Below, one piece after another: positions 6,535-18,953 of a DNA stretch of 34,583 bases (within the stretch, counting starts at the first letter, position 1; the number at the start of each line of letters is the position of its first letter). The position numbers and the translations under genes are program-made. Below the pieces are notes generated by a model. It saw nothing but the letters and a program-made list of their open reading frames with translations. It had not been told where the DNA came from and searched no databases. The DNA comes from an uncultured Clostridia bacterium (GTDB taxonomy: Bacteria; Bacillota; Clostridia; Peptostreptococcales; Anaerovoracaceae), in NCBI GenBank assembly GCA_944386095.1, contig CALWZU010000044.1, positions 1-34,583 on the forward strand, read 5' to 3'.

Positions 6535-6712
6535 AAGCTCGAATATAGGAAATATGGGCGAGAATAGAAACAAATGCTGGAAAATGATGCATATATATTG
6601 ATGAAGGTACGGCTTTTCGGTCAATATCGTGTGGCGTCAGGTTTACAGCATTTCGGTGCGCTTGCCGGTATTTTTTATACACACGCACAAAAACAAAAGG
6701 AGGGCATTAGCT

Positions 6713-7945
6713 TTGGAACAAAAGGAAAAGATTTCGTCAAAAGAGATGTTAAACAATCTGATGGCAAACCATTACAAAAGCGCAATGGAAGCTAAGGCGA
6801 ACGGCGAACTGGTAGCATGGTCCACCTCCATCGCTCCTCAGGAGCTTCTGGAAACCATGGATATCAAAGTCGTTTATCCTGAAAACCATGCCGCAGCCAT
6901 CGGCGCCAGAAAAGAAGCGCAGAAGTTTATCGATGACGCGGAAGGAAGAGGATATTCCATCGACCTGTGCTCCTATGCCAGAGTCAACATCGGATACAAA
7001 AACATCCAGTATGCGGATGCAGAAAACATTCCCCTTCCCGATTTCATTTTCAGCTGCGACAATATCTGCCATACCGTACTCAAGTGGTATGAAAACCTGG
7101 CAAAAGACCTGAACATTCCACTGATCGTATTCGACATGCCGTTTAACCATACCTATGATGTTCCCGATCACGCGGTCAAATACATGAAGGGCCAGATCGA
7201 AGAAGCTATCAAGAGGCTGGAAAAGATCTCCGGCAAAAAATTCGACCACGACAGATTCAGAGAAGTCATGGAGCAGTCCAATAAAACCTCCCAGATGTGG
7301 AAGGACGCTTCCATGGTAGCAAAAGCGAAGCCTTCTCCGTTAAACGGATTTGACCTTTTCAACTATATGGCCGCCATCGTAACCTCCAGAGGGACAAAGG
7401 AAGGCTATGAGCTCTTCAAACGCTGGAAGGAAGAGCTGGAAGAAAAAGCCGCTGCCGGACTGGGCCCCTGGAAGCCGGGCGAAGAAGAAAAGTTCAGAGT
7501 TATGTGGGACGGCATCGCCTGCTGGCCTTATCTGGGACCCACATATAAAGGACTCAAGAACAACGGCATCAACATGGTAACCTCCACCTATCCCGATTCC
7601 TGGACGATCCTGTACGAAACAGGCGATGTTGACGGCATGGCAAGAGCTTACAGCTCCAATTACGTTAACAGAAACCTGAATTACGGCGTAGACAATATCG
7701 TAAACCTGATCAATGAATTCTCCCTGGACGGCGTTGTGTTCCACTCCAACAGAAGCTGCAAGCTGATGGACTTCAGACAGTATGAAGTACAGAGAGAAGT
7801 AGAAGAAAGAACCGGCGTTGTTTCCGTTATCTTCGACGGAGACCAGACAGACCCCAGAGCGTTCTCTACTGAACAGTACAACACGAGAATTCAGGCATTC
7901 CTTGAAATGCTCGAAAACAGGAAGGAAGAAAGGAGAAAGGGATAA
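6713..7945 (+). CDS. hadB: 2-hydroxyacyl-CoA dehydratase, alpha subunit (HadB/HgdA/FldB family)
   Basis: One of two subunits of an oxygen-sensitive iron-sulfur enzyme that removes water from an (R)-2-hydroxyacyl-CoA by a ketyl-radical mechanism. Starting at TTG 6713, with AGGAGG 8 bases upstream, the protein has 410 residues, close to C. difficile HadB as I recall it and lacking the long internal insertion of Acidaminococcus HgdA. Cysteines expected to hold the [4Fe-4S] cluster are seen in DLCSYAR (Cys86), CDNICHTVLKWYEN (Cys119) and NRSCKLMD (Cys349). The family motif FDGDQTDPRAF is near the C-terminus. An ATG frame extends 28 codons further upstream but has no ribosome binding site and codes for unlikely sequence. 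The stop overlaps the next start (TAATG), so the subunits are translationally coupled. Sequence feel is nearer HadB than HgdA, but the substrate cannot be assigned from sequence alone. Confidence 0.92.
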   Translation: MEQKEKISSKEMLNNLMANHYKSAMEAKANGELVAWSTSIAPQELLETMDIKVVYPENHAAAIGARKEAQKFIDDAEGRGYSIDLCSYARVNIGYKNIQYADAENIPLPDFIFSCDNICHTVLKWYENLAKDLNIPLIVFDMPFNHTYDVPDHAVKYMKGQIEEAIKRLEKISGKKFDHDRFREVMEQSNKTSQMWKDASMVAKAKPSPLNGFDLFNYMAAIVTSRGTKEGYELFKRWKEELEEKAAAGLGPWKPGEEEKFRVMWDGIACWPYLGPTYKGLKNNGINMVTSTYPDSWTILYETGDVDGMARAYSSNYVNRNLNYGVDNIVNLINEFSLDGVVFHSNRSCKLMDFRQYEVQREVEERTGVVSVIFDGDQTDPRAFSTEQYNTRIQAFLEMLENRKEERRKG

Positions 7946-9072
7946 TGGCTGACTTGAAGAATATGATCGCACAACTGGAACAGGTTGCGCTGGAACCGGC
8001 AAAAGCGGTTGCCGGAATCAAATCTGAAGGTAAAAAAGTAGTGGGAATGTTCCCTCTTTATCTTCCTGAGGAAATCGTTTATGCCGCCGGCATGATCCCG
8101 GTAGGCATGTGGGGCGGTCAGACGGAAATCAAGCTGGCTGACAGATATCTCCAGAGCTTTTGCTGCTCCATTATCAGAGCTGATCTGGAAATGGGCATGA
8201 GAGGCACTTATAACATGCTGGACGGTGTGATCATGGCAACCTACTGCGACACCCTCAAATGCGTCTGCGAAGACTGGAAGGTCGCCGTACCCCAGATCCC
8301 CTTTATCCCCATGGTTTATCCCCAGAACAGAAACATCCAGCCCGCTATCGAATACATGAAAGCGGAATTCTCCAGAGTGCAGGCGGAGCTGGAAAAGATC
8401 GCCGGCACAACCGTAACCGAAGAAAAGCTGGAAGCTGCATGGGAAGTATATGAAGCCTACAGAGCAGCCTGCAGAAAGTTCGTAAAGCTGGTAGAAAAAA
8501 TGCCAAAGACCCTCAACGCCAAAACCAGACACCTGATCCTGAAGGCATCCTGGTTTATGGACAAGAAGGTTTACACCGAAAAGCTCAACGCCATCATGGA
8601 AGCCATTGAAGCCGCTCCCGCGGAAGAATTCAACGGCACGAAGGTGGTTGTGGAAGGCATCATGACAGAGCCTTTGGCCCTGCTGGACGCTTTCGTGGAA
8701 AACAATGTATGCATCATCGCCGACGATCTGGCTCATGAATCCAGACAGTTCAGAACAGTAGGCAGAACCGAAGGAACCGTTTACGAGAGAATGGCCTACA
8801 GAATCGCCGATGCCAAGGGCGACGCGCTTCTGTATGAAGAAATGAAAACAAAAGGCCAGTTCCTGATCGATCTGGTAAAAGACAGCAAGGCTGACGGCGT
8901 GGTTGTCTGCATGATGAAATTCTGCGATCCGGAAGAATACGATTACCCGATCTTCAAGGTAGAGCTGGAAGAGGCCAAGGTGCCCATGCTGTACATGGAA
9001 ATCGAACAGAAGATGGATTCCGTAGAGCCTTTGAAGACCAGAATCCAGAGTTTCGCCGAAATGCTTTCATAG
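7945..9072 (+). CDS. hadC: 2-hydroxyacyl-CoA dehydratase, beta subunit (HadC/HgdB/FldC family)
   Basis: Partner subunit of the radical dehydratase. At 375 residues it has the family's usual length. Conserved blocks are YLPEEIVYAAGMIPVGMWGG (residues 39-58), SFCCSII (71-77), YCDTLKC (100-106), IADDLAHESRQF and VCMMKFCDPEEYDYP (cysteine near 327). These blocks supply the second iron-sulfur cluster and the acyl-CoA pocket. GGQTEIKLA after MW resembles 2-hydroxyisocaproyl-CoA dehydratase more than 2-hydroxyglutaryl-CoA dehydratase. The start codon overlaps the preceding stop by one base. Together with the upstream subunit and the downstream activator it forms a complete dehydratase system. Confidence 0.93.
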   Translation: MADLKNMIAQLEQVALEPAKAVAGIKSEGKKVVGMFPLYLPEEIVYAAGMIPVGMWGGQTEIKLADRYLQSFCCSIIRADLEMGMRGTYNMLDGVIMATYCDTLKCVCEDWKVAVPQIPFIPMVYPQNRNIQPAIEYMKAEFSRVQAELEKIAGTTVTEEKLEAAWEVYEAYRAACRKFVKLVEKMPKTLNAKTRHLILKASWFMDKKVYTEKLNAIMEAIEAAPAEEFNGTKVVVEGIMTEPLALLDAFVENNVCIIADDLAHESRQFRTVGRTEGTVYERMAYRIADAKGDALLYEEMKTKGQFLIDLVKDSKADGVVVCMMKFCDPEEYDYPIFKVELEEAKVPMLYMEIEQKMDSVEPLKTRIQSFAEMLS

Positions 9073-9087: not shown

Positions 9088-9876
9088 GTGTTTTTTTTAG
9101 GAATTGACATCGGTTCATCTTCATCAAAAGCCGTTTTGATCGACGAGAACAAAAACATACTGGCCAGTGCGGCAAGAAATATCGGAACGGGAACAAACGG
9201 CCCCTCCATCGTGGTACAGGAGGTGCTGGAGGCGGCGGGCATCGCCAGAGACCAGATCCAGTTCACCGTTGTAACAGGCTACGGCAGGGTCAACTATACC
9301 CAGGCGGACAAACAAATCACAGAAATCAGCTGTCACGGCAAAGGCATCGCGCATCTGATTCCGGGCGCCCGGACGATTATCGACATCGGCGGTCAGGACG
9401 CGAAGGTCATCAAGCTTTCCCAGGACGGAACGGTTGAAAATTTTGTTATGAATGAAAAGTGCGCCGCCGGGACGGGAAGATTCCTGGAAGTCATGGCGCG
9501 TATCCTGAATTGTAATATTAATGAGCTTTCAGACTTGTCTCTGAAGTCAAAACACGATATAATCATTAGTAACACCTGTACGGTTTTCGCCGAATCTGAG
9601 GTTATTTCTCAGCTTGCGGGGGGAGCCTCCAAGGAAGACGTTGCAAAAGGCGCAGATAACGCGATCGCCTCCCGCGTGGCGGGTCTTGCTCGTCGGATCG
9701 GCATCGTTCCCATCGTTGCCATGTCCGGCGGCGTGGCAATGAACCCCAGCGTGGTAGCCTCTCTTTCCAGGGAGATCGGCGAAGAAATCACCGTAGCACC
9801 TCATCCCCAGACTGTGGGAGCTTTGGGTGCGGCGTTGTTTGCCCTTGAAGCGTACCAAAAAAAGGAAAAAAATTAA
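9088..9876 (+). CDS. hadI: 2-hydroxyacyl-CoA dehydratase activator (HadI/HgdC family)
   Basis: ATP-driven one-electron donor ('archerase') that energises the dehydratase. The homodimer is bridged by one [4Fe-4S] cluster. The 262-residue protein has the ASKHA ATPase fold: GIDIGSSSSK (residues 5-14), VVTGYGRVNY and IIDIGGQDAKVIKL. Cluster ligands are Cys125 (NEKCAAGTGRF) and Cys164 (SNTCTVFAESE), matching Cys127/Cys166 of Acidaminococcus HgdC. The start is GTG, preceded by AGGAAAGGGAG and followed directly by a run of eight T, so the first codons are slippage-prone. It sits 15 bp behind the beta subunit, within the operon. Confidence 0.94.
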   Translation: MFFLGIDIGSSSSKAVLIDENKNILASAARNIGTGTNGPSIVVQEVLEAAGIARDQIQFTVVTGYGRVNYTQADKQITEISCHGKGIAHLIPGARTIIDIGGQDAKVIKLSQDGTVENFVMNEKCAAGTGRFLEVMARILNCNINELSDLSLKSKHDIIISNTCTVFAESEVISQLAGGASKEDVAKGADNAIASRVAGLARRIGIVPIVAMSGGVAMNPSVVASLSREIGEEITVAPHPQTVGALGAALFALEAYQKKEKN

Positions 9877-9896
9877 CAGAAAGGATGTTGAAGACA

Positions 9897-10760
9897 ATGG
9901 AATTCAAAAAAGTGGCTATGATCGGTGCCGGCACTATGGGTAACCAGATCGCTATGCAGTGCGCAATTTGCGGCTATGACGTAACCTGCTACTCCAGAAG
10001 ACAGACAACTGTTGACAAGGCTCAGGCTTTCTCCGACAAGTGGTTTGCCGGCAGAGTTGCAAAAGGCAAGATGACGCAGGAAGAAGTTGACGAAATCCAG
10101 AAGAGACTGATTTTCACAAACGACCTGAAGACAGCCTGCGAAGGCGCTGACCTGGTAATCGAAGCCGTTGCCGACGTAATCGACACAAAGAAAAAGGTAC
10201 TGGCGGATGTAGACGCTCTTACCCCGGACAACACCATTTATGCGTCCAACAGCTCCTACATCGTTGCTTCTCTGTTCTGCGACGCTGTAAAGCATCCTGA
10301 AAGAGTGATCAACCTTCACTTCTTCAATCCCGCTCTGGTTATGAAGTGCGTTGAAGTTGTAAAAGGACCTCACGCTTCCCAGGAAGTTATCGACGAAATG
10401 GTAGAATTCGTAAAATCCATCAAGAAGGTTCCCTCCGTTGTTAACAAGGAAATCTATGGATTTATCGTAAACAGAATCTTCAGCGCTATGACAAAGGAAG
10501 CCTGCTATCTGCTGGATCAGGGCGTAGCTTCCGTAGAAGACATCGACAACGCTGTAAAGAACGGCCTTGGCCACAGCATGGGTCCCCTGGAACTGCTTGA
10601 CATGACCGGCATCGATCTGGAATACGATGTTCTGATGCAGAAATACAGATTAACAGGCGATCTGGCCGACAAACCGTCTCCCGGTCTTGTAGAAAGATAC
10701 GCAAGAGGCGACTATGGCAGAAAGACAGGAAAAGGCTTCTACGAATATCCTGCTAAATAA
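9897..10760 (+). CDS. hbd: 3-hydroxyacyl-CoA (3-hydroxybutyryl-CoA) dehydrogenase
   Basis: Interconverts acetoacetyl-CoA and (S)-3-hydroxybutyryl-CoA. The 287-residue product has the single-domain bacterial Hbd length. The Rossmann motif is GAGTMG (residues 10-15), the catalytic histidine is His141 in LHFFNPA, and the C-terminal domain has GFIVNRI and GLGHSMGPLELLDMTG. At the end of the second strand, where NAD-dependent members carry an acidic residue, this one has CYSRRQ (Ser33-Arg34-Arg35), which suggests NADP(H). Start 9897 was chosen over the ATG at 9885 because AAAGGA abuts the earlier codon but is 11 bases from this one. Next to crt and thl, it can act in oxidation of crotonyl-CoA or in butyrate synthesis. 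Confidence 0.93.
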   Translation: MEFKKVAMIGAGTMGNQIAMQCAICGYDVTCYSRRQTTVDKAQAFSDKWFAGRVAKGKMTQEEVDEIQKRLIFTNDLKTACEGADLVIEAVADVIDTKKKVLADVDALTPDNTIYASNSSYIVASLFCDAVKHPERVINLHFFNPALVMKCVEVVKGPHASQEVIDEMVEFVKSIKKVPSVVNKEIYGFIVNRIFSAMTKEACYLLDQGVASVEDIDNAVKNGLGHSMGPLELLDMTGIDLEYDVLMQKYRLTGDLADKPSPGLVERYARGDYGRKTGKGFYEYPAK

Positions 10761-10776
10761 GTAAGAGGTGTCATAC

Positions 10777-11538
10777 ATGGAAGATTTGGTACTTTACGAG
10801 AAAGTCGGTAATATCGGCGTTCTGAAAGTGAACAGACCAAAAGCGTTCAATGCGTTGAGCAGAGAGGTTGTCGATGAAATCGACAACAAGCTGGCAATCA
10901 TCGAAAAAGACGAAGAGATCAGAGCTCTGATCGTGACCGGCGACGGCAATTTTGCAGCCGGAGCCGACATCGTCGCCATGGTAGAGTTGAATCCGGAGCA
11001 GGCGAGAGCCTTCCTTTTCTCCGACACATTCAACCGCCTGGAAAACCTGAGCATTCCCACCATCGCCGCCGTATGCGGCTATGCCCTGGGCGGCGGGCTG
11101 GAGCTGGCACTGACCTGTGACTTCAGGATCGCTTCCGAAGATGCGAAGGTCGGTCTTCCGGAAATCACACTGGGTATCATGCCCGGCGCCGGCGGAACCG
11201 TCAGACTTCCCAGATTGATCGGCGAAGCAAAGGCAAAGGAAATGATTCTGCTGGGCGGACAGATCAAGGCGGATGAGGCTCTGAAGGCCGGACTTTTCAC
11301 GAAGGTGGTTCCCAAGGAGGAACTGTTCGACGAGGCCATGAAATTGGCGGAAAAGCTGGCGCAGAGACCCAAGCTGGCCCTGAAAGCCGCAAAACAGTCC
11401 ATTAACAATGGAAAAGCTCAGGCTGAAGCGATCGTTAAAGAGGCAGACATCTGGTCGAGCTTATTCGCAACACATGATCAAAAAGAAGGCATGAGAGCCT
11501 TCGTTGATAAAAGAAAACCGCAGTATATTGGTAAATAG
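10777..11538 (+). CDS. crt: Enoyl-CoA hydratase / crotonase
   Basis: Hydrates crotonyl-CoA to (S)-3-hydroxybutyryl-CoA and works in reverse in butyrate formation. From ATG 10777 the product has 253 residues, normal for short-chain crotonase. The oxyanion-hole segment is FAAGADIVAM, and the two catalytic glutamates are Glu109 in GGGLELAL and Glu129 in LPEITLGIMPGAGG, 20 residues apart as in rat crotonase. A GTG three codons earlier overlaps the AGAGGTG ribosome binding site and was rejected. Gaps of 16 and 12 bp to hbd and thl support co-transcription. It would take the enoyl-CoA released by the dehydratase if that product is crotonyl-CoA. Confidence 0.93.
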   Translation: MEDLVLYEKVGNIGVLKVNRPKAFNALSREVVDEIDNKLAIIEKDEEIRALIVTGDGNFAAGADIVAMVELNPEQARAFLFSDTFNRLENLSIPTIAAVCGYALGGGLELALTCDFRIASEDAKVGLPEITLGIMPGAGGTVRLPRLIGEAKAKEMILLGGQIKADEALKAGLFTKVVPKEELFDEAMKLAEKLAQRPKLALKAAKQSINNGKAQAEAIVKEADIWSSLFATHDQKEGMRAFVDKRKPQYIGK

Positions 11539-11550
11539 GAGGACACAATT

Positions 11551-12732
11551 ATGCGAAATGTAGTAGTAGTAGCTGCCGCTAGAACAGCTATTGGTACCAT
11601 CAACGGACAGTTCAAAACCTTAACACCTGTTGAACTGACAGTACCTGTAATGGAAGCCCTGATCGACAGAGCCGGCATCGACCCTGCCATCATCGACGAA
11701 GTTATCTGGGGTGAAAACTATCAGAGAACCTATCTGGAAAACAACATCGCCAGAGTATGTGCTGTTAAAGCCGGATGCCCCGTAACATCCGCTCCTGGTA
11801 TCACCATTCACAGAAACTGCACATCTTCCCTTTCTTCCGTACAGTTCGGTTACTATCAGATCAAAGCCGGCGACGCTGACTGCATCCTGGCAGGTGGTAC
11901 GGAATCCATGACCGCTGCTCCTTTCATGACATTTGACATGAGAGCCGGCAAGAAATTCGGTCACTCCCAGCTGAGAGACTCCATGTGGGATTCTCTGTCC
12001 AGCGCTGGCGTTGGCTGCTCCATGGGTATGACAGCTGAAAACGTTGCTGAAAGATACGGCATCACAAGAGAAATGCAGGACGAACTGGCCTGTGAATCTC
12101 AGAGAAGAGCGACAGCTGCTATCAACGAAGGAAAATTCAAGGATGAAATCGTTCCGATCACAGTAAAACTGAAGAAGAGCGAAGTTGTTGTGGACACAGA
12201 CGAATATCCGAAACCGGGCACCACAATGGAAGGTCTTGCCAAGCTGAGAGCTTCCTTCAAGGATGGCGGTACCGTAACAGCCGGTAATGCTTCCGGTATG
12301 AACGACGCTTCCTCCGGCGTAATCCTGATGTCCGAAGAAAAAGCCAAGGAACTGGGCTGCAACATCCTGTGCAGAGTTGCCAGCGTATTCGTAGCCGGCG
12401 TTGATCCTGATTACATGGGTATCGGACCTCTCTTCGCAATTCCTAAGGCTTGCGAAAAGGCTGGTATCGAAGTGAAAGACTTAGACCTGGTTGAACTGAA
12501 CGAAGCATTCGCTGCTCAGGCCTGCGCCTGCATCAGAGAACTGGGACTCAACAAGGAAATCGTTAACGTAAACGGTTCCGGTATCTCCCTTGGTCACCCG
12601 GTTGGTGCTACAGGTACCAGAATGATCACAACTCTGATCTATGAAGCCAAGAGAAGAGGAAACGTTAAATGGGCTTGCGCATCCGCTTGCGCCGGCACCG
12701 GTATGGGCGTTGCCGTTGTATTCGAATTCTAA
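11551..12732 (+). CDS. thlA: Acetyl-CoA C-acetyltransferase (thiolase)
   Basis: Cleaves acetoacetyl-CoA to two acetyl-CoA, or condenses them. The 393-residue protein has the standard thiolase II length. Active-site residues are Cys90 (HRNCTSSLSS), His349 (GISLGHPVGATG) and Cys380 (SACAGTGMG). NEAFAAQA is also present. The last motif is CAGTGMG where most acetyl-CoA thiolases have CIGGGMG or CIGGGQG, and the nucleophile motif is NCTSSL, not VCGSGL, so this is a somewhat divergent member whose chain-length preference cannot be assumed. It ends the six-gene operon; a 140-bp gap with a GC-rich hairpin follows. Confidence 0.9.
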   Translation: MRNVVVVAAARTAIGTINGQFKTLTPVELTVPVMEALIDRAGIDPAIIDEVIWGENYQRTYLENNIARVCAVKAGCPVTSAPGITIHRNCTSSLSSVQFGYYQIKAGDADCILAGGTESMTAAPFMTFDMRAGKKFGHSQLRDSMWDSLSSAGVGCSMGMTAENVAERYGITREMQDELACESQRRATAAINEGKFKDEIVPITVKLKKSEVVVDTDEYPKPGTTMEGLAKLRASFKDGGTVTAGNASGMNDASSGVILMSEEKAKELGCNILCRVASVFVAGVDPDYMGIGPLFAIPKACEKAGIEVKDLDLVELNEAFAAQACACIRELGLNKEIVNVNGSGISLGHPVGATGTRMITTLIYEAKRRGNVKWACASACAGTGMGVAVVFEF

Positions 12733-12760
12733 TCGGGCTGCATAAGATTCTTTTGCGGCG

Positions 12761-12785
12761 GGGAGGGCCGAGAGCTCTCCCGGCC
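12761..12785 (+). other. GC-rich hairpin after thiolase gene
   Basis: Two overlapping pairings are possible: GGGAG (12761-12765) with CTCCC (12777-12781), or GGCCG (12766-12770) with CGGCC (12781-12785). There is no T-run, so it is more likely a 3'-end stabiliser or partial terminator. No convincing promoter was seen in the gap before the next gene. Confidence 0.45.
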
Positions 12786-12872
12786 GTAAATCATCGGAAA
12801 ATTCCGGCGGGTCATATAACAAAAGGCTCGGGATGTTATCATTCGTGAAATAAGAAAGAGGTAAATACTGAA

Positions 12873-14240
12873 ATGAACTACTATAAGCTGAGTACTGTTC
12901 AGGAAGAGTACAAGAAAAAATTAAAGACTGCTGATGAAGCTGTCAAAATCATTAAATCCGGTGACAGAGTACACTATGGTCTGTTCAACGGTCTGGTTGT
13001 TGACCTGGATGAAGCGCTGGCTAAGAGAACAGAAGAGTTGCATGATGTTATCATCATGACCACTATCTGGGCTTGGCCCTTCCCGCCCAAAATCCTGGAA
13101 GCCGACCCCAAGGCGGAACACTTCAAGTATCTGAGCACACAGTTCAGCGGCACTGACAGAAAAATGAACAAGCAGGGCTGCTGCTGGTACATTCCTGTAC
13201 AGTTCAGAGAAAACCCCAAATACTGGGCAGAATGTGTAGAACCCTGTGACGTTGTAATGCTGCAGACCGGTCCTATGGACAAATGGGGCAACTTCAACCT
13301 GGGACCACAGGTTGCGGAATACTGGGGCATCTTCAAGAACGCGAAGCACATCATCGTTGAAATCAACGAAAAACAGCCCAAGACCCACGGCGTAGGCATC
13401 TCCCTGAACATTTCCGAAATCGATACCATCGTTGAAGGCAGAAACATCGACATGCCTCAGGTAAAACCGAAGGATCCTTCCGAAATCGACAAGAAGATCG
13501 CTTCTCACATCATCAACAAGATCAAAGACGGCTCCACCATGCAGCTGGGTGTAGGCGGACTTCCCAACTATATCGGTTCTCAGCTGGCTGAATCCGATGT
13601 TAAGGATCTGGGCGTTCACTCCGAAATGTTCGTAGACGCTTATCTGAAGCTGTATGAAGCCGGCAAGATCACAGGCGACAGAAAGAACATCAACAAGCGT
13701 CAGCTGGTACATACATTCTGCCAGGGTTCTCAGGCTCTGTATGATTTCCTGGATGACAATCCGATCGTACAGTGTATGCCGGTAGACTATGTAAATGATA
13801 TCGGCGTTATCGCTTCCAATGACAATGTTGTTTCCATCAACAGCTGTCTGCAGGTAGACATTCAGGGTCAGGTTAACTCCGAATCTGACGTATGGCAGCA
13901 TATCGGCGGAAACGGCGGACAGGTAGACTTCGTACTGGGCGCTTTCAAATCCAACGGCGGACAGTCCTTCCTGTGCACTCCTTCCACCAGAACTTATAAA
14001 GATGGTCACGTTGAATCCCTCATCGTTCCCAGACTGATCGAAGGCGCGACCGTTACCGTTCCCAGAACAGGCCCGCACTATATCGTAACAGAATATGGCG
14101 CTGTTAACCTGAAGGGAAGATCCATGTGGGAAAGAGCGGAACTGCTCATCAGCATCGCTCACCCCGATTTCCAGGATGATCTGGTAAGAGAAGCAGAAAG
14201 AATGGGTCTGTGGAAGACTTCTTCCAAAATCACATACTAG
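12873..14240 (+). CDS. Acyl-CoA:acetate CoA-transferase (butyryl-CoA / 4-hydroxybutyrate CoA-transferase family)
   Basis: Family I-type CoA-transferase that exchanges CoA between an acyl-CoA and a carboxylate through a glutamyl-CoA thioester. The 455-residue protein resembles bacterial butyryl-CoA:acetate CoA-transferase (But) and the 4-hydroxybutyrate transferase AbfT/Cat2. The predicted nucleophile is Glu251 in GVHSEMFVDAY, and the CoA-binding loop is LGVGGLPN (residues 225-232). C-terminal HYIVTEYGAVNLKG and RAELLISIAHPDF are family hallmarks. Its neighbours, a class III aminotransferase and an iron alcohol dehydrogenase, favour use of 4-hydroxybutyrate or a related hydroxy acid. The 2-hydroxyacyl-CoA dehydratase operon upstream makes a 2-hydroxy acid a second possible substrate. 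AAAGAGG lies ahead of the start. Confidence 0.85.
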   Translation: MNYYKLSTVQEEYKKKLKTADEAVKIIKSGDRVHYGLFNGLVVDLDEALAKRTEELHDVIIMTTIWAWPFPPKILEADPKAEHFKYLSTQFSGTDRKMNKQGCCWYIPVQFRENPKYWAECVEPCDVVMLQTGPMDKWGNFNLGPQVAEYWGIFKNAKHIIVEINEKQPKTHGVGISLNISEIDTIVEGRNIDMPQVKPKDPSEIDKKIASHIINKIKDGSTMQLGVGGLPNYIGSQLAESDVKDLGVHSEMFVDAYLKLYEAGKITGDRKNINKRQLVHTFCQGSQALYDFLDDNPIVQCMPVDYVNDIGVIASNDNVVSINSCLQVDIQGQVNSESDVWQHIGGNGGQVDFVLGAFKSNGGQSFLCTPSTRTYKDGHVESLIVPRLIEGATVTVPRTGPHYIVTEYGAVNLKGRSMWERAELLISIAHPDFQDDLVREAERMGLWKTSSKITY

Positions 14241-14257
14241 TTTTGAGAAGATAAAAC

Positions 14258-14279
14258 GGGGCAAAGGCACCTTTGCCCC
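14258..14279 (+). other. Hairpin after CoA-transferase gene
   Basis: GGGGCAAAG (14258-14266), loop GCAC, CTTTGCCCC (14271-14279) is a perfect 9-bp stem located 18 bases after the stop codon. It is terminator-like but has no following T-run, so read-through or RNA stabilisation is likely. Confidence 0.6.
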
Positions 14280-14283
14280 ACTG

Positions 14284-14295
14284 ATTTACGTAAAT
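14284..14295 (+). promoter_or_regulatory. 12-bp perfect palindrome upstream of the aminotransferase gene
   Basis: ATTTACGTAAAT is a perfect palindrome about 85 bp before the aminotransferase start. Its symmetry without a loop suggests a DNA-binding site for a dimeric regulator. Further on, ATGCG (14301-14305) and CGCAT (14318-14322) form another short inverted repeat. Confidence 0.4.
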
Positions 14296-14379
14296 AGTTG
14301 ATGCGCTGCTTTTCTGACGCATTGATTATTTAATACAAGTTTCTCAAAAGGTTATCATTTTAAAAGGAGGACGATTATT

Positions 14380-15693
14380 ATGCCAATGAAATTTGAGGAT
14401 TACAAACAGTATTTATCCCCAGTATTCTCAAAGAGCTCCGATCTCGTTGCGGGCGAAGGCCACGGTCTTTATATTACAGACGTAAACGGCGTTAAATATC
14501 TGGATATGATTCAGGGTATTGCTGTAAACGTAGCCGGACATACACATCCCAAGATCGTTAAGGCGATTCAGGACCAGGCTGGAAAGCTGATCCACGCTTC
14601 CTTCAACCATGTTAACTATCCTACCACTCTGGAACTTGCCAAGAGACTGGCTTCTGTTGCTCCTGGCGAAGGCGAAAAGAAATTAACAAGCCTCTTCTTC
14701 TCCAACGGTGGTGCGGAAGCGACAGACAGTGCGATCAAACTGGCCAGATGCGCAACAGGCAGACCGCTGATCATCGCTTGCCAGGGTTCCTTCCACGGCA
14801 GAACTGTGGGCGCTACATCCGTTACAGGTTCCAACTCTCACTACAGAGAAGCTTATGAACCATTAATGGGCGGCGTTTACTGGACACCGTTCCCCCAGAG
14901 AATTCTTTGCCCCGATTCCATCGACAATGACGATCTGGAAGGCAGAGCGGATTATTGCCTGTGGATGCTGGAGAACCTGCTGAAGTTCCTGGCTCCGCCG
15001 AAAGAAGTAGCTGCGATCATCATGGAACCCATCCAGGGTGAAGGCGGATACGTTGCTCCTCATCCGAAGTTCTTAAAGGGCGTTAGAGAAATCTGCGACA
15101 AGCACGGCATTCTCCTGATCTTTGACGAAATCCAGTCCGGATTCGGCAGAACAGGTAAAATGTGGGCAAGCCAGCACTTTGATGTAGTTCCGGATATCAT
15201 GACAACCGGTAAAGCCATCGGCGGCGGTCTCCCCATGTCCTGCGTATGGTCTACACCTGCTATCATGGATAGATGGAACAAAGGTACCCACGGAACAACC
15301 TTCGGCGGCAACCCGGTTTGCGCTGCTGCTGGTCTTGCTGTACTGGATGTTATCGAAGAAGAAGGCCTGATCGAAAACAGCAGAGTAATGGGTGATTATC
15401 TCCAGAAACAGCTGAAAGAAATGCAGAAGAGACATAAGATCATCGCTGACATCAGAGGTATCGGCCTCATGACAGCTGCTGAATTCTGCAAACCCGGCAC
15501 CTTCGAACCTGATGCCAATGCTCTTTCCTTCATCACCAAATACCTCAGAGAAGAAGAACACATGCTCACAACAGGTTGCGGCGTAAATGGAAACGGCTTC
15601 AGATTCATCATGCCTCTGAACATCAAGCAGGAAGAAGTTGATCTGTGCCTCGAAAAATTCGAAAAGGCTGTTGCGGCTTACGAAGCAAAATAA
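14380..15693 (+). CDS. gabT: Class III aminotransferase, 4-aminobutyrate aminotransferase-like
   Basis: PLP-dependent fold-type I enzyme that moves a terminal amino group, most likely from 4-aminobutyrate to 2-oxoglutarate. The 437-residue length fits GabT better than ArgD (about 400). Visible motifs are NGGAEATDSAIKLAR (residues 109-123), GSFHGRT (136-142), EPIQGEGG (216-223), the FDEIQSGFGRTG block with Asp249 contacting the PLP nitrogen, and TTGKAIGGG with Lys278 as the Schiff-base lysine. AGGAGG lies 9 bases ahead of the start. Between a CoA-transferase and an iron alcohol dehydrogenase it fits GABA fermentation. Because no argD accompanies argCJB in this window, an acetylornithine role is a possible alternative. 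Confidence 0.82.
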   Translation: MPMKFEDYKQYLSPVFSKSSDLVAGEGHGLYITDVNGVKYLDMIQGIAVNVAGHTHPKIVKAIQDQAGKLIHASFNHVNYPTTLELAKRLASVAPGEGEKKLTSLFFSNGGAEATDSAIKLARCATGRPLIIACQGSFHGRTVGATSVTGSNSHYREAYEPLMGGVYWTPFPQRILCPDSIDNDDLEGRADYCLWMLENLLKFLAPPKEVAAIIMEPIQGEGGYVAPHPKFLKGVREICDKHGILLIFDEIQSGFGRTGKMWASQHFDVVPDIMTTGKAIGGGLPMSCVWSTPAIMDRWNKGTHGTTFGGNPVCAAAGLAVLDVIEEEGLIENSRVMGDYLQKQLKEMQKRHKIIADIRGIGLMTAAEFCKPGTFEPDANALSFITKYLREEEHMLTTGCGVNGNGFRFIMPLNIKQEEVDLCLEKFEKAVAAYEAK

Positions 15694-15753
15694 GCAGGCT
15701 GCACCGTCTGACAGAATCAACATCATAAACTAAGGTTCAATTGTAATTCGTGC

Positions 15754-15781
15754 TCAGCCTGTGCACCCGTGCACAGGCTGA
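15754..15781 (+). other. 13-bp perfect inverted repeat between aminotransferase and dehydrogenase genes
   Basis: The arms 15754-15766 (TCAGCCTGTGCAC) and 15769-15781 are perfect complements separated by CC, giving a very stable hairpin 42 bases before the next start codon. No T-run follows. It may stabilise upstream mRNA, partly terminate, or bind a regulator as DNA. Confidence 0.6.
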
Positions 15782-15823
15782 TTATCTCACGCTTCCAAAA
15801 TGAAATAAAGAGGAGTGATAACC

Positions 15824-17008
15824 ATGAAAGATTTTGAATTCAAAATGCCTGCCAGAGTAAAATTTGGTGAAGGAATCAGCAAACAGATCGGTCAGGTTCT
15901 CAGAGATATGGGATACAAGAAGGTATTCATCGCTACCGATAAAGGTATCGTTGCTGCCGGCATTATCGCTCAGATCGAAGAAGGTCTGAAGGCCGGAAAC
16001 TTCGAATACCAGGTATATGATGAACTGATTCCGGATCCCACCATCGAAGTCGTTGACGAAGCGGCTGAGGTTCTGAGAAAGAGCGGCGCGGACGTTGTTC
16101 TGGCAGTTGGCGGCGGCAGCCCCATCGACACGGCGAAAGCCATGTGCATGCTGCAGACACACGAAGGCTCCATCAGAGAATACCTCTTTGGCGGAACCAA
16201 ATCCGTTACCAATCCTATCATGCCTTTGATCTGCATCCCCACAACGGCTGGCACCGGTTCCGAAATGACCGCTGCTTCCGTTATCACAAACAATCAGAAC
16301 AAGACCAAGGTTTCCGTAACCCACGAAAACCTGATCCCCAAATATGCTCTGATCGATCCCATGCTCCAGCTGGGCTGCCCTCCGTTCATCACCGCTACAA
16401 CCGGTATGGATGCGCTGACACATGCCATCGAGTCTTACATCTCCAACAGAGCTAACCCCATCAGCGAAGCCATGTCCCTGCAGGCCATCAGAATGATCGG
16501 CAAGAACATCAGAACCGCTGTTGGCGCTGGTTCCGCTATGGAAGCCAGAAGCAACATGGCAGTTGCCTCCACCATCGCCGGCGTTGCCTTCATGAACGGC
16601 GGACTGGGCGTTGTACACGGCATCGGCCAGACCATCGGCGCGATTGCACACGTACCCCACGGCGTTGCCATGACTCTGCTGCTGCCCTACTGCATGGAAA
16701 GATCTGTTGTAGGTAATTTTGAAAAATTCAAGGATATCGCCATTGCGCTGGGCAAGAACGTAGAAGGTCTTGACCTGAGAGACGCTGCTTTCGCAGCGGT
16801 TGACGCCGTATTCGAAATGGCGGAAGATCTGAGAGTGCCCATGAGATTATCCGAACTGGATCCTGCCAAGAGACAGTGCTCCGAGCCGATCACAGAGGCT
16901 ATGTTCGATGAGATCATCGAGGACGTTATGAACTACAGACTCCTGGCTGACACACCGGTCAAAATCACCAGAGACGACGTTAGAGCGATCCTGGAGGCTG
17001 CGTTATAA
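15824..17008 (+). CDS. Iron-containing alcohol dehydrogenase (candidate 4-hydroxybutyrate dehydrogenase)
   Basis: Group III metal-dependent alcohol dehydrogenase; here a likely job is reducing succinate semialdehyde to 4-hydroxybutyrate with NAD(P)H. The 394-residue protein has GGGSPIDTAKAM (residues 97-108) and PTTAGTGSE (139-147) for nucleotide binding, and metal ligands Asp196 and His200 (GMDALTHAIE), His265 (VVHGIG) and His279 (HVPHG). The start is ATG 15824, with GAGGAG about 10 bases upstream; an in-frame GTG three codons earlier overlaps that site. The sequence also resembles 1,3-propanediol and general alcohol dehydrogenases, so the substrate assignment rests on the neighbouring CoA-transferase and aminotransferase. 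A strong terminator follows. Confidence 0.85.
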   Translation: MKDFEFKMPARVKFGEGISKQIGQVLRDMGYKKVFIATDKGIVAAGIIAQIEEGLKAGNFEYQVYDELIPDPTIEVVDEAAEVLRKSGADVVLAVGGGSPIDTAKAMCMLQTHEGSIREYLFGGTKSVTNPIMPLICIPTTAGTGSEMTAASVITNNQNKTKVSVTHENLIPKYALIDPMLQLGCPPFITATTGMDALTHAIESYISNRANPISEAMSLQAIRMIGKNIRTAVGAGSAMEARSNMAVASTIAGVAFMNGGLGVVHGIGQTIGAIAHVPHGVAMTLLLPYCMERSVVGNFEKFKDIAIALGKNVEGLDLRDAAFAAVDAVFEMAEDLRVPMRLSELDPAKRQCSEPITEAMFDEIIEDVMNYRLLADTPVKITRDDVRAILEAAL

Positions 17009-17093: not shown

Positions 17094-17168
17094 CCCATCC
17101 GGCAAAACCCCATCCGGCAAAACCCCATCCGGCAAAACCCTATCCGGTAAAAACCCATCCGGCAAAGA
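17094..17168 (+). repeat. 15-bp tandem repeat, five units
   Basis: The unit CCCATCCGGCAAAAC occurs three times perfectly (17094-17108, 17109-17123, 17124-17138), followed by two diverged units (17139-17153 and 17154-17168). It directly abuts the terminator. It is non-coding and too short and spacer-free to be a CRISPR. The following 170 bp (17169-17340) show no gene or clear signal. Confidence 0.9.
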
Positions 17169-17490: not shown

Positions 17491-18516
17491 ATGAGCAAGA
17501 AAAAAGTAGTATATTACAACGTTGACGACACTCTTGATTTTGAAAATCAGCTTCTGAAAGAGTGGGGCGTAGATGACATCGAACTGATCGAGTTCAAAAA
17601 CGGCGAAGACAGAGACAAGCCGGAAGCTTTCCTGGAAGCAACAAAAGATGCGGATGGCATCGTAGTTGAATTCTTCGACGTAAACGCCAGCGTTATCGAA
17701 AAGATGGACAAATGTAAGATCGTAGCTCTGCAGGCGATCGGTTATTCCAACGTTGATATCGATGCTGCTACCGAAAAAGGCATGGCCGTTACCAACAGCC
17801 CCGGATTCTGCACACCTGAAGTTGCGGTACATACAGTAGGTCTGATTATCGACCTGGCAAGAAAAATCACATTCCTTGACAGAACCGTAAGAGAAGGAGA
17901 ATGGAATCCTCATCTCTGCGGCCCCATGGTAAAGAGACTGGCTGGTCAGACTGTAGGTCTGGTATTCTTTGGCTCCATTCCAAAGTACATGATTCCTATT
18001 CTGAAGGCCATGGAAATGAAGGTTACCTGCTGGGCTCCCACAAAGACCGCAGAATACCTTGCTGAATTCGGCGTAGAAAAAGTAGAAACACTGGAACAGT
18101 TGCTGAAGGAATCCGATTTCGTATCCCTGCACTGCCCGCTGGTTATGAAAGAAACACCCGGCAGACCTTCCACCTATCACATCATCGGCGAAAAAGAACT
18201 GAAGATGATGAAGCCCTCCGCTTATCTGATCAACACAGCCAGAGGCCAGGTCATCGATGAAGCAGCTCTTGTAAAAGCCCTGAAAGAAGGCTGGATCAGA
18301 GGCGCAGGCGTAGACGTAATCGAAGACGAAGCAACGGAAAAATCCGAACTGTTTGGTCTGGACAACGTAATCTGCACACCTCATGCTGCTTTCGTTTCCG
18401 TTGAAGCTTTCGAGGATGCCAGAATCATCGCTCTGAGACAGCTGGTTGAACTGCTCCACGACAATAAGGTTCCGGAAAATCTGGTTAACAAAGCAGTTGC
18501 GGACAAACTCTTATAA
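17491..18516 (+). CDS. D-2-hydroxyacid dehydrogenase-family protein with an altered NAD-binding loop
   Basis: Member of the D-isomer-specific 2-hydroxyacid dehydrogenase superfamily (CtBP/PGDH-like), 341 residues. The expected role is NAD(P)H-dependent reduction of a 2-oxo acid to the (R)-2-hydroxy acid that would feed the dehydratase. The catalytic triad is intact: Arg251 (NTARGQ), Glu280 (VDVIEDE) and His298 (CTPHAAF). The nucleotide-binding glycine loop is not: where the family has GxGxxG this protein reads FFGSIP (residues 159-164), keeping one of three glycines, and the usual acidic residue after the second strand is alanine (WAPTK, residue 182). It may use NADP(H), bind cofactor differently, or have another function. 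GGGAGGA precedes the start. It has its own promoter and is followed 50 bp later by ridA. Confidence 0.85.
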   Translation: MSKKKVVYYNVDDTLDFENQLLKEWGVDDIELIEFKNGEDRDKPEAFLEATKDADGIVVEFFDVNASVIEKMDKCKIVALQAIGYSNVDIDAATEKGMAVTNSPGFCTPEVAVHTVGLIIDLARKITFLDRTVREGEWNPHLCGPMVKRLAGQTVGLVFFGSIPKYMIPILKAMEMKVTCWAPTKTAEYLAEFGVEKVETLEQLLKESDFVSLHCPLVMKETPGRPSTYHIIGEKELKMMKPSAYLINTARGQVIDEAALVKALKEGWIRGAGVDVIEDEATEKSELFGLDNVICTPHAAFVSVEAFEDARIIALRQLVELLHDNKVPENLVNKAVADKLL

Positions 18517-18566: not shown

Positions 18567-18953
18567 ATGAAACAGACAGCTATTTTTAACGAAAAAACTT
18601 TAGGCGAAGTACATGGCCCATACGTTCAGGGAACAAAATATCGTGATTTATTCTTCACAACTCAGATCGCTACTCTTCCCAATGGCGACATGGTTCCGAA
18701 TGATTATTACGAACAGACAAAGCAGACTCTGCTGAACGCTCAGGCTGCTGCTGCTGAAGTTGGCGCTACTCTGCAGGACTGCCTCACATGCAGAATCTTC
18801 ATCCTGGACTACAATATGTATGATGAAGTAAACAGAGCTTACAAAGAAATCATGCCCAACAATCCGTTCCCCACAAGAGCTTGCCTGCAGATCTCCAGAA
18901 TGCTGCCGGACGTACTGGTTGAAATGGAATTCATCTTCAGATGCGACGAATAA
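18567..18953 (+). CDS. ridA: RidA/YjgF family enamine-imine deaminase
   Basis: Small cytosolic trimer-forming protein that hydrolyses reactive enamine/imine intermediates, classically 2-aminoacrylate and 2-aminocrotonate released by serine and threonine dehydratases. The 128-residue length is standard. The key arginine that binds the substrate carboxylate is present as Arg104 in FPTRACLQ (Arg105 in E. coli), followed by the usual DVLVEMEFIF end. AAAAGGAG lies ahead of the start. Pairing with a 2-hydroxyacid dehydrogenase-like gene hints at a 2-oxo acid produced from an enamine, for example 2-oxobutyrate from threonine; that link is inference. Terminated by a strong hairpin 64 bases later. Confidence 0.9.
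   Translation: MKQTAIFNEKTLGEVHGPYVQGTKYRDLFFTTQIATLPNGDMVPNDYYEQTKQTLLNAQAAAAEVGATLQDCLTCRIFILDYNMYDEVNRAYKEIMPNNPFPTRACLQISRMLPDVLVEMEFIFRCDE

Follow-up and report, generated by a model that had tools for sequence, protein, structure and literature searches.

A clade of 2-hydroxyacid dehydrogenases with a variant dinucleotide-binding loop in a putative amino-acid fermentation module of Clostridiales Family XIII

Dinucleotide binding is classically recognized by a glycine-rich loop. The window analyzed here, a stretch of 34,583 nucleotides from an uncultured Clostridia bacterium (contig CALWZU010000044.1), encodes a 2-hydroxyacid dehydrogenase (2-HADH) homologue in which FFGSIP takes the place of this GxGxxG loop. 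Is such a protein still an enzyme and, if so, what does it do? Our analysis indicates that it is probably a working 2-oxoacid reductase, that is, an (R)-2-hydroxyacid dehydrogenase, which belongs to a distinct subfamily and would act in an amino-acid fermentation module.

Signature and catalytic residues of the dehydrogenase

The dehydrogenase (341 aa) is encoded on the forward strand at 17491-18516, in a frame that begins with ATG and has GGGAGG close upstream. We classify it as a D-2-hydroxyacid dehydrogenase of a variant-loop subfamily based on its structural relatives and its matches to PF02826 (8.2e-52) and PF00389 (6.7e-22), whose 175.6 and 78 bits are above the cut-offs of 25.1 and 24.6. 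Among PDB entries, archaeal glyoxylate reductases and phosphoglycerate dehydrogenase (PGDH) come closest to it in sequence. The focal genome contains four further full-length matches to the 2-HADH NAD-binding domain, and the paralogues listed by our protein search share only ∼31–32% identity with the variant dehydrogenase.

The residues named by an earlier, sequence-only reading of this DNA (FFGSIP at 159–164, Ala182, Arg251, Glu280 and His298) match the translation exactly. The loop lies at 17965-17982 (forward strand), and at 18034-18045 on the same strand the tetrapeptide APTK (residues 182–185) occupies the end of strand βB in place of the Asp that contacts the NAD ribose. We compared 44 homologues, comprising 16 distinct sequences of the clade described below, focal protein included (61–100% identity), and 28 outside relatives. 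The catalytic residues Arg251 (18241-18243), Glu280 (18328-18330) and His298 (18382-18384), all on the forward strand, are conserved in 44/44, as are D275, V276, G161 and G252, and G84 is found in 43/44. In the 2-HADH family, nicotinamide binding is assigned to an Asp/Val pair and substrate placement to a Gly (PMC6303947); by our own alignment, D275/V276 and G84 would be their respective counterparts.

Measured against the family motif GXXGXGXXG (PMC6303947), the focal stretch GLVFFGSIP keeps two of four glycines (G156 and G161), with the first and third glycines of GxGxxG gone. Since every glycine of the motif varies somewhere in the family (PMC6303947), this loss does not exclude family membership. 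G161 is the sole loop glycine that is invariant in all 44 homologues. Outside the clade, the third-glycine position is Pro or Ala in 16/28 relatives and the first is Ser or Ala in 9/28, nearly all of which keep the Asp; position 182 is Asp in 23, Asn in four and Thr in one. All 16 clade sequences have F159, F160, G161, I163, P164 and A182-P183-T184-K185, and within the loop only residue 162 varies (Ser in 15, Glu in one). Pro164 was considered as part of a special damage to the loop and rejected, Pro being common there outside the clade, which leaves only Phe159 and Ala182 as special. None of the 38 outside sequences of our tree has Phe for the first Gly.

The sequence-only reading had raised a local mutation or sequencing error, to be recognized by a normal GxGxxG in homologues at the same locus. 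The orthologues all carry the variant loop, and the presence of the signature in 16 sequences whose codons vary synonymously at these sites rules out such an origin. This variation also shows that recent descent alone does not account for the retention of the signature residues. A crude permutation, uncorrected for kinship, put the combination of a 6-mer with five or more invariant columns and a fully invariant 4-mer in the clade at ∼9e-4, against a background in which 36% of core columns are invariant within the clade.

Distribution and origin of the signature

When ∼1,540 genomes were searched with the dehydrogenase protein, orthologues above 60% identity were found only in Clostridiales Family XIII; a scan of named genomes added one in a Spirochaetales MAG, SZUA-377. 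The 16 clade sequences are monophyletic with a support of 100/100 in a maximum-likelihood tree of 54 rows, and their stem branch measures 0.58 changes per column. Their sister group, also from Family XIII, reads SFGNIP, SFGHIP, AFGNIP, SFGNIA, SFGNIG or GLGNIG, always with YDP, a pattern summarized as [SAG]xGNI[PAG] plus the usual Asp, and more distant firmicute relatives read GFGNIP/YDPY. Most of the sister group has Ser or Ala for the first Gly, and a change of the third Gly to Pro is widespread outside the clade. By this comparison, Pro164 is older and common, and Phe159 and Ala182, with T184 and K185, are changes peculiar to the clade; the tree supports a single origin of the signature.

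One genome, G024, holds a copy from each group, ∼1.8 kb apart (12124-13119 and 14905-15930 of its locus), which assigns the loop change to the gene lineage and not to the genome. At this locus (12124-15930), the variant dehydrogenase and the sister 2-HADH with its normal Asp flank an acetolactate-synthase-type thiamine-diphosphate enzyme, and RidA is absent. The Spirochaetales contig (QKAR01000041.1) carries the module with a variant dehydrogenase of 61% identity, through either gene transfer or a binning error; extra 2-HADH-like and chemoreceptor-like genes, named by eye, lie downstream.

The surrounding module and its proposed pathway

In the window, the dehydrogenase is the penultimate gene of a row encoded on the forward strand. 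The row starts with hadB- and hadC-like subunits of a 2-hydroxyacyl-CoA dehydratase (6689-7945, start approximate, and 7945-9072), both matching PF06050 and scoring 522 bits to NF052455 and 444 bits to NF052456, under the cut-offs of 750 and 700, followed by a hadI-like dehydratase activator (9088-9876; TIGR00241, 261 bits, above cut-off). Next are hbd, a 3-hydroxyacyl-CoA dehydrogenase found by profile search (9885-10760), and a crotonase (enoyl-CoA hydratase; 10768-11538) and a thiolase (11551-12732), both named from synteny and translations read by eye. A CoA-transferase of the butyryl-CoA:acetate CoA-transferase type (12873-14240; TIGR03948, 512 bits, under the 674.8 cut-off), a class III aminotransferase of the GABA-T/acetylornithine/isoleucine epimerase type (14380-15693; PF00202) and an iron-dependent alcohol dehydrogenase (15815-17008; PF00465), which adjoins in most clade loci, lead to the dehydrogenase. 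A RidA family enamine/imine deaminase (18567-18953; PF01042, 4e-21) follows it. The 480-bp gap between the alcohol dehydrogenase and dehydrogenase genes contains a 15-bp tandem repeat, CCCATCCGGCAAAAC, in 4.9 copies (17094-17166). Matches to a sigma-54 promoter pattern in the window were no better than chance.

This order (hadBCI, hbd, crt, thl, CoA-transferase, aminotransferase, alcohol dehydrogenase, dehydrogenase, RidA) is maintained across genera: it is repeated in five further loci (L051, L055, L103, L104 and L105), and L092 has the same order without crt. The sequence-only reading had proposed a search for homologues sharing the FGSIP loop and co-occurring with ridA. They exist: FFG[S/E]IP is present in 16/16 clade sequences, and RidA adjoins the dehydrogenase in 15/16 clade loci versus 0/18 outside relatives (within 1.5 kb), the exception being the variant copy of G024.

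Downstream of RidA, genomes G130 and G364 encode Fer2_4, FAD oxidoreductase, 4Fe4S and DAO proteins plus a transporter, and G130 also has a separate BFD/SO_alpha_A3 protein and then a racemase-like gene. The order is aminotransferase, alcohol dehydrogenase, dehydrogenase, RidA, oxidase and racemase in G006, and the same without the alcohol dehydrogenase on the Spirochaetales contig. In several genomes the oxidase is on a contig other than that of the dehydrogenase, and in the focal genome the racemase, transporter and oxidase set lie together on another contig, C48. The DAO subunit of the oxidase occurs in 13/15 clade genomes versus 0/27 other family genomes picked for completeness (Fisher 4e-9, uncorrected for kinship); the two clade genomes without it are 77–78% complete assemblies. 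The closest known counterparts of the set are heteromeric amino-acid oxidases of the sarcosine oxidase/HcnABC/proline dehydrogenase type, which likewise have Fer2_4, FAD, 4Fe4S, BFD (SO_alpha_A3) and DAO parts encoded one after another. In the module, the two of these parts for which curated models exist score under the NCBIfam cut-offs.

Other genes were seen near the module. In G364, a sigma-54 activator with PAS domains (Pfam; L103 436-2160) lies just upstream of hadB, and a frame at the equivalent place in G130 (L104 2-1192) resembles it by eye. In two loci from two genera (L039 10685-13839 and L041 10960-14145), flavodiiron-like and ∼640-aa acyl-CoA dehydrogenase-like genes, named by eye, are directly upstream of the dehydrogenase. 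An AbfD-like 4-hydroxybutyryl-CoA dehydratase (908 bits to 1u8v) is present in 13/15 clade genomes and also in 11/27 others, a co-occurrence too weak to point to a substrate. In G291 (L102 7735-10764), a second DAO-type oxidase stands beside this dehydratase; match positions place the two likewise in G292.

We propose a route in which the order of steps, like the activity, substrate and cofactor, is our reading of this gene content. The racemase would deliver a D-amino acid, which the five-part flavin/Fe-S oxidase complex would convert to a 2-imino acid and RidA would hydrolyze to the 2-oxo acid. The variant dehydrogenase would then reduce the 2-oxo acid to an (R)-2-hydroxy acid, and so feed HadBCI: the CoA-transferase would form the CoA ester, HadBCI would turn it into a 2-enoyl-CoA, and crotonase, Hbd and thiolase would yield acetyl-CoA and a shorter acyl-CoA. 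The aminotransferase and iron-dependent alcohol dehydrogenase would handle a second amino group. The usual substrates of such a pair are omega-amino acids such as GABA, which suggests a diamino acid as the substrate; ornithine or lysine would be our guess, and the AbfD-like dehydratase would fit lysine weakly. Known clostridial HadBCI fermentations (leucine in C. difficile, 2-hydroxybutyrate in C. propionicum) likewise run from a 2-oxoacid through an (R)-2-hydroxyacid and its CoA ester to the dehydratase (PMC8473912). The C. propionicum path (PMC8473912) has the same logic as the proposed route, which adds an oxidative front end. Unlike in these two organisms, the module adds the aminotransferase/alcohol dehydrogenase pair, RidA, the racemase and the flavin oxidase complex, crt, hbd and thl follow, and the reductase is the variant-loop protein. 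A literature search on the module found no relevant paper.

Cofactor site and alternative readings

We further investigated how a protein with this loop could hold a dinucleotide. In an AlphaFold2 model (pLDDT 93.8), strand 154–158 leads into helix 162–173, so that the predicted fold starts with an ordinary Rossmann βα unit. The best Foldseek matches were 6bii, 5aov, 2dbq and 1wwk (TM ∼0.8 across two mobile domains); the top ones are glyoxylate reductases, including two structures with bound NADP. The archaeal glyoxylate/hydroxypyruvate reductases (2dbq, 5aov and 6bii), best matches by both sequence and fold, lack an Asp at the ribose position, as does the variant clade, but are normal at the first two glycines and have Gly in third place as well, at 35–36% identity to the focal protein. 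Where the latter has Ala-Pro-Thr-Lys, 2dbq and 5aov have Ser-Arg-Thr-Arg. In the D2HDH of H. mediterranei, binding of the pyrophosphate relies on backbone amides of the first helix turn and on the helix dipole (PMC12328707), and S162 and I163 after G161 are the likely counterparts of these amides. The dinucleotide would thus be held by the dipole of helix αA and the backbone amides of 162–163, behind an indispensable G161.

Cofactor choice in 2-HADHs sits in the βB-αD loop, where an Asp equivalent to Ala182 is found in 5/9 characterized subfamilies and a missing Asp points to NADPH (PMC6303947). The NADP fingerprint of the GHRA type, [ST]R[ST]X[RK], is not matched by APTK[T/S], in which the third position alone agrees, and we therefore only lean toward NADPH or dual use; T184 and K185 could contribute to binding. 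The sequence-only reading had proposed a subfamily with changed cofactor use. The subfamily holds up (one clade, one origin, an invariant loop and APTK, RidA in 15/16) and the cofactor change is plausible, as far as sequence allows. Its expectation of impaired NAD binding fared less well: mutations of the motif glycines reportedly bring a drastic loss of activity (PMC6303947) and the loop change is real, but impairment is not established, with the catalytic and nicotinamide-side residues invariant and the predicted Rossmann unit ordinary.

The protein could instead be an ordinary NADH-linked 2-hydroxyacid dehydrogenase whose loop changes are structurally tolerated and became fixed a single time, by drift on the stem lineage, with cofactor use unchanged. 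The frequent substitution of the first and third glycines among relatives that nearly always keep the Asp shows a loosely constrained loop, which speaks for this explanation, as do the normal predicted fold and the absence of any totally conserved motif glycine in the family. The change of Asp182 to Ala is nevertheless exceptional beside Asp-keeping relatives, and drift does not explain why APTK has been invariant since the Spirochaetales copy split off; we consider this explanation unlikely. Far less probable still is a pocket remodeled for another ligand, such as a CoA ester or some other nucleotide, in an enzyme that works with another redox partner. The exchange of the first Gly for Phe and the APTK tetrapeptide are a strong, invariant remodeling of the dinucleotide site on a long stem branch (0.58), but the nicotinamide-side D275/V276 are invariant and NADP complexes are among the best fold matches.

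We give equally little credence to a non-enzymatic, CtBP-like role, which the sequence-only reading had offered and in which the protein would sense a ligand or regulate the operon with no dinucleotide bound. Besides the variant loop and the position next to RidA, the annotation of plasmid-borne outside relatives as "C-terminal binding protein" favors it. Prokaryotic 2-HADHs with this annotation (L015-L017, L072, L075-L077 and L079) have the same domains and catalytic residues, and their loops contain an FGxIP core in which Pro replaces the third glycine; unlike the variant clade, they have Asp at 182, Gly, Ser or Ala at 159 and no adjacent RidA. The CTBP subfamily likewise has a conserved βB-αD Asp, unlike the clade with A182 in 16/16, and animal CtBP retains this Asp as well as NAD binding (PMC6303947), which makes it a poor parallel for the altered loop. 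The catalytic and nicotinamide-side residues are all invariant, Pfam finds no DNA-binding domain in the protein, and nothing in the bacterial context suggests corepressor function or PxDLS binding. The G364 module has its own sigma-54 activator. The gene, a 2-HADH by domain, moreover sits inside a catabolic, HadBCI-type operon at the sole step that needs a 2-oxoacid reductase; it is the only 2-HADH seen in the G364 and G130 modules, which are complete and show no second 2-oxoacid reductase in the stretch read.

A working reductase with an NAD(P)H pocket re-tuned, possibly toward NADPH, is therefore our best reading of these sequences. A bolder version, which we advance only tentatively, is that the FFG[S/E]IP/APTK clade has a novel mode of dinucleotide binding that dispenses with the canonical loop, and serves an undescribed D-/diamino-acid fermentation that joins the oxidase, RidA, the reductase, HadBCI and β-oxidation enzymes in one pathway. 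If this is true, and if lysine is the substrate, the AbfD-like dehydratase that clade genomes often carry would receive 4-hydroxybutyryl-CoA from thiolysis. Having lost two loop glycines and the ribose Asp with its catalytic residues intact and its position in a catabolic operon fixed, the clade offers a clean natural experiment on which motif elements are essential, in a protein that motif-led annotation would label broken. Its module points to an unassigned amino-acid fermentation in Family XIII bacteria of the gut and rumen.
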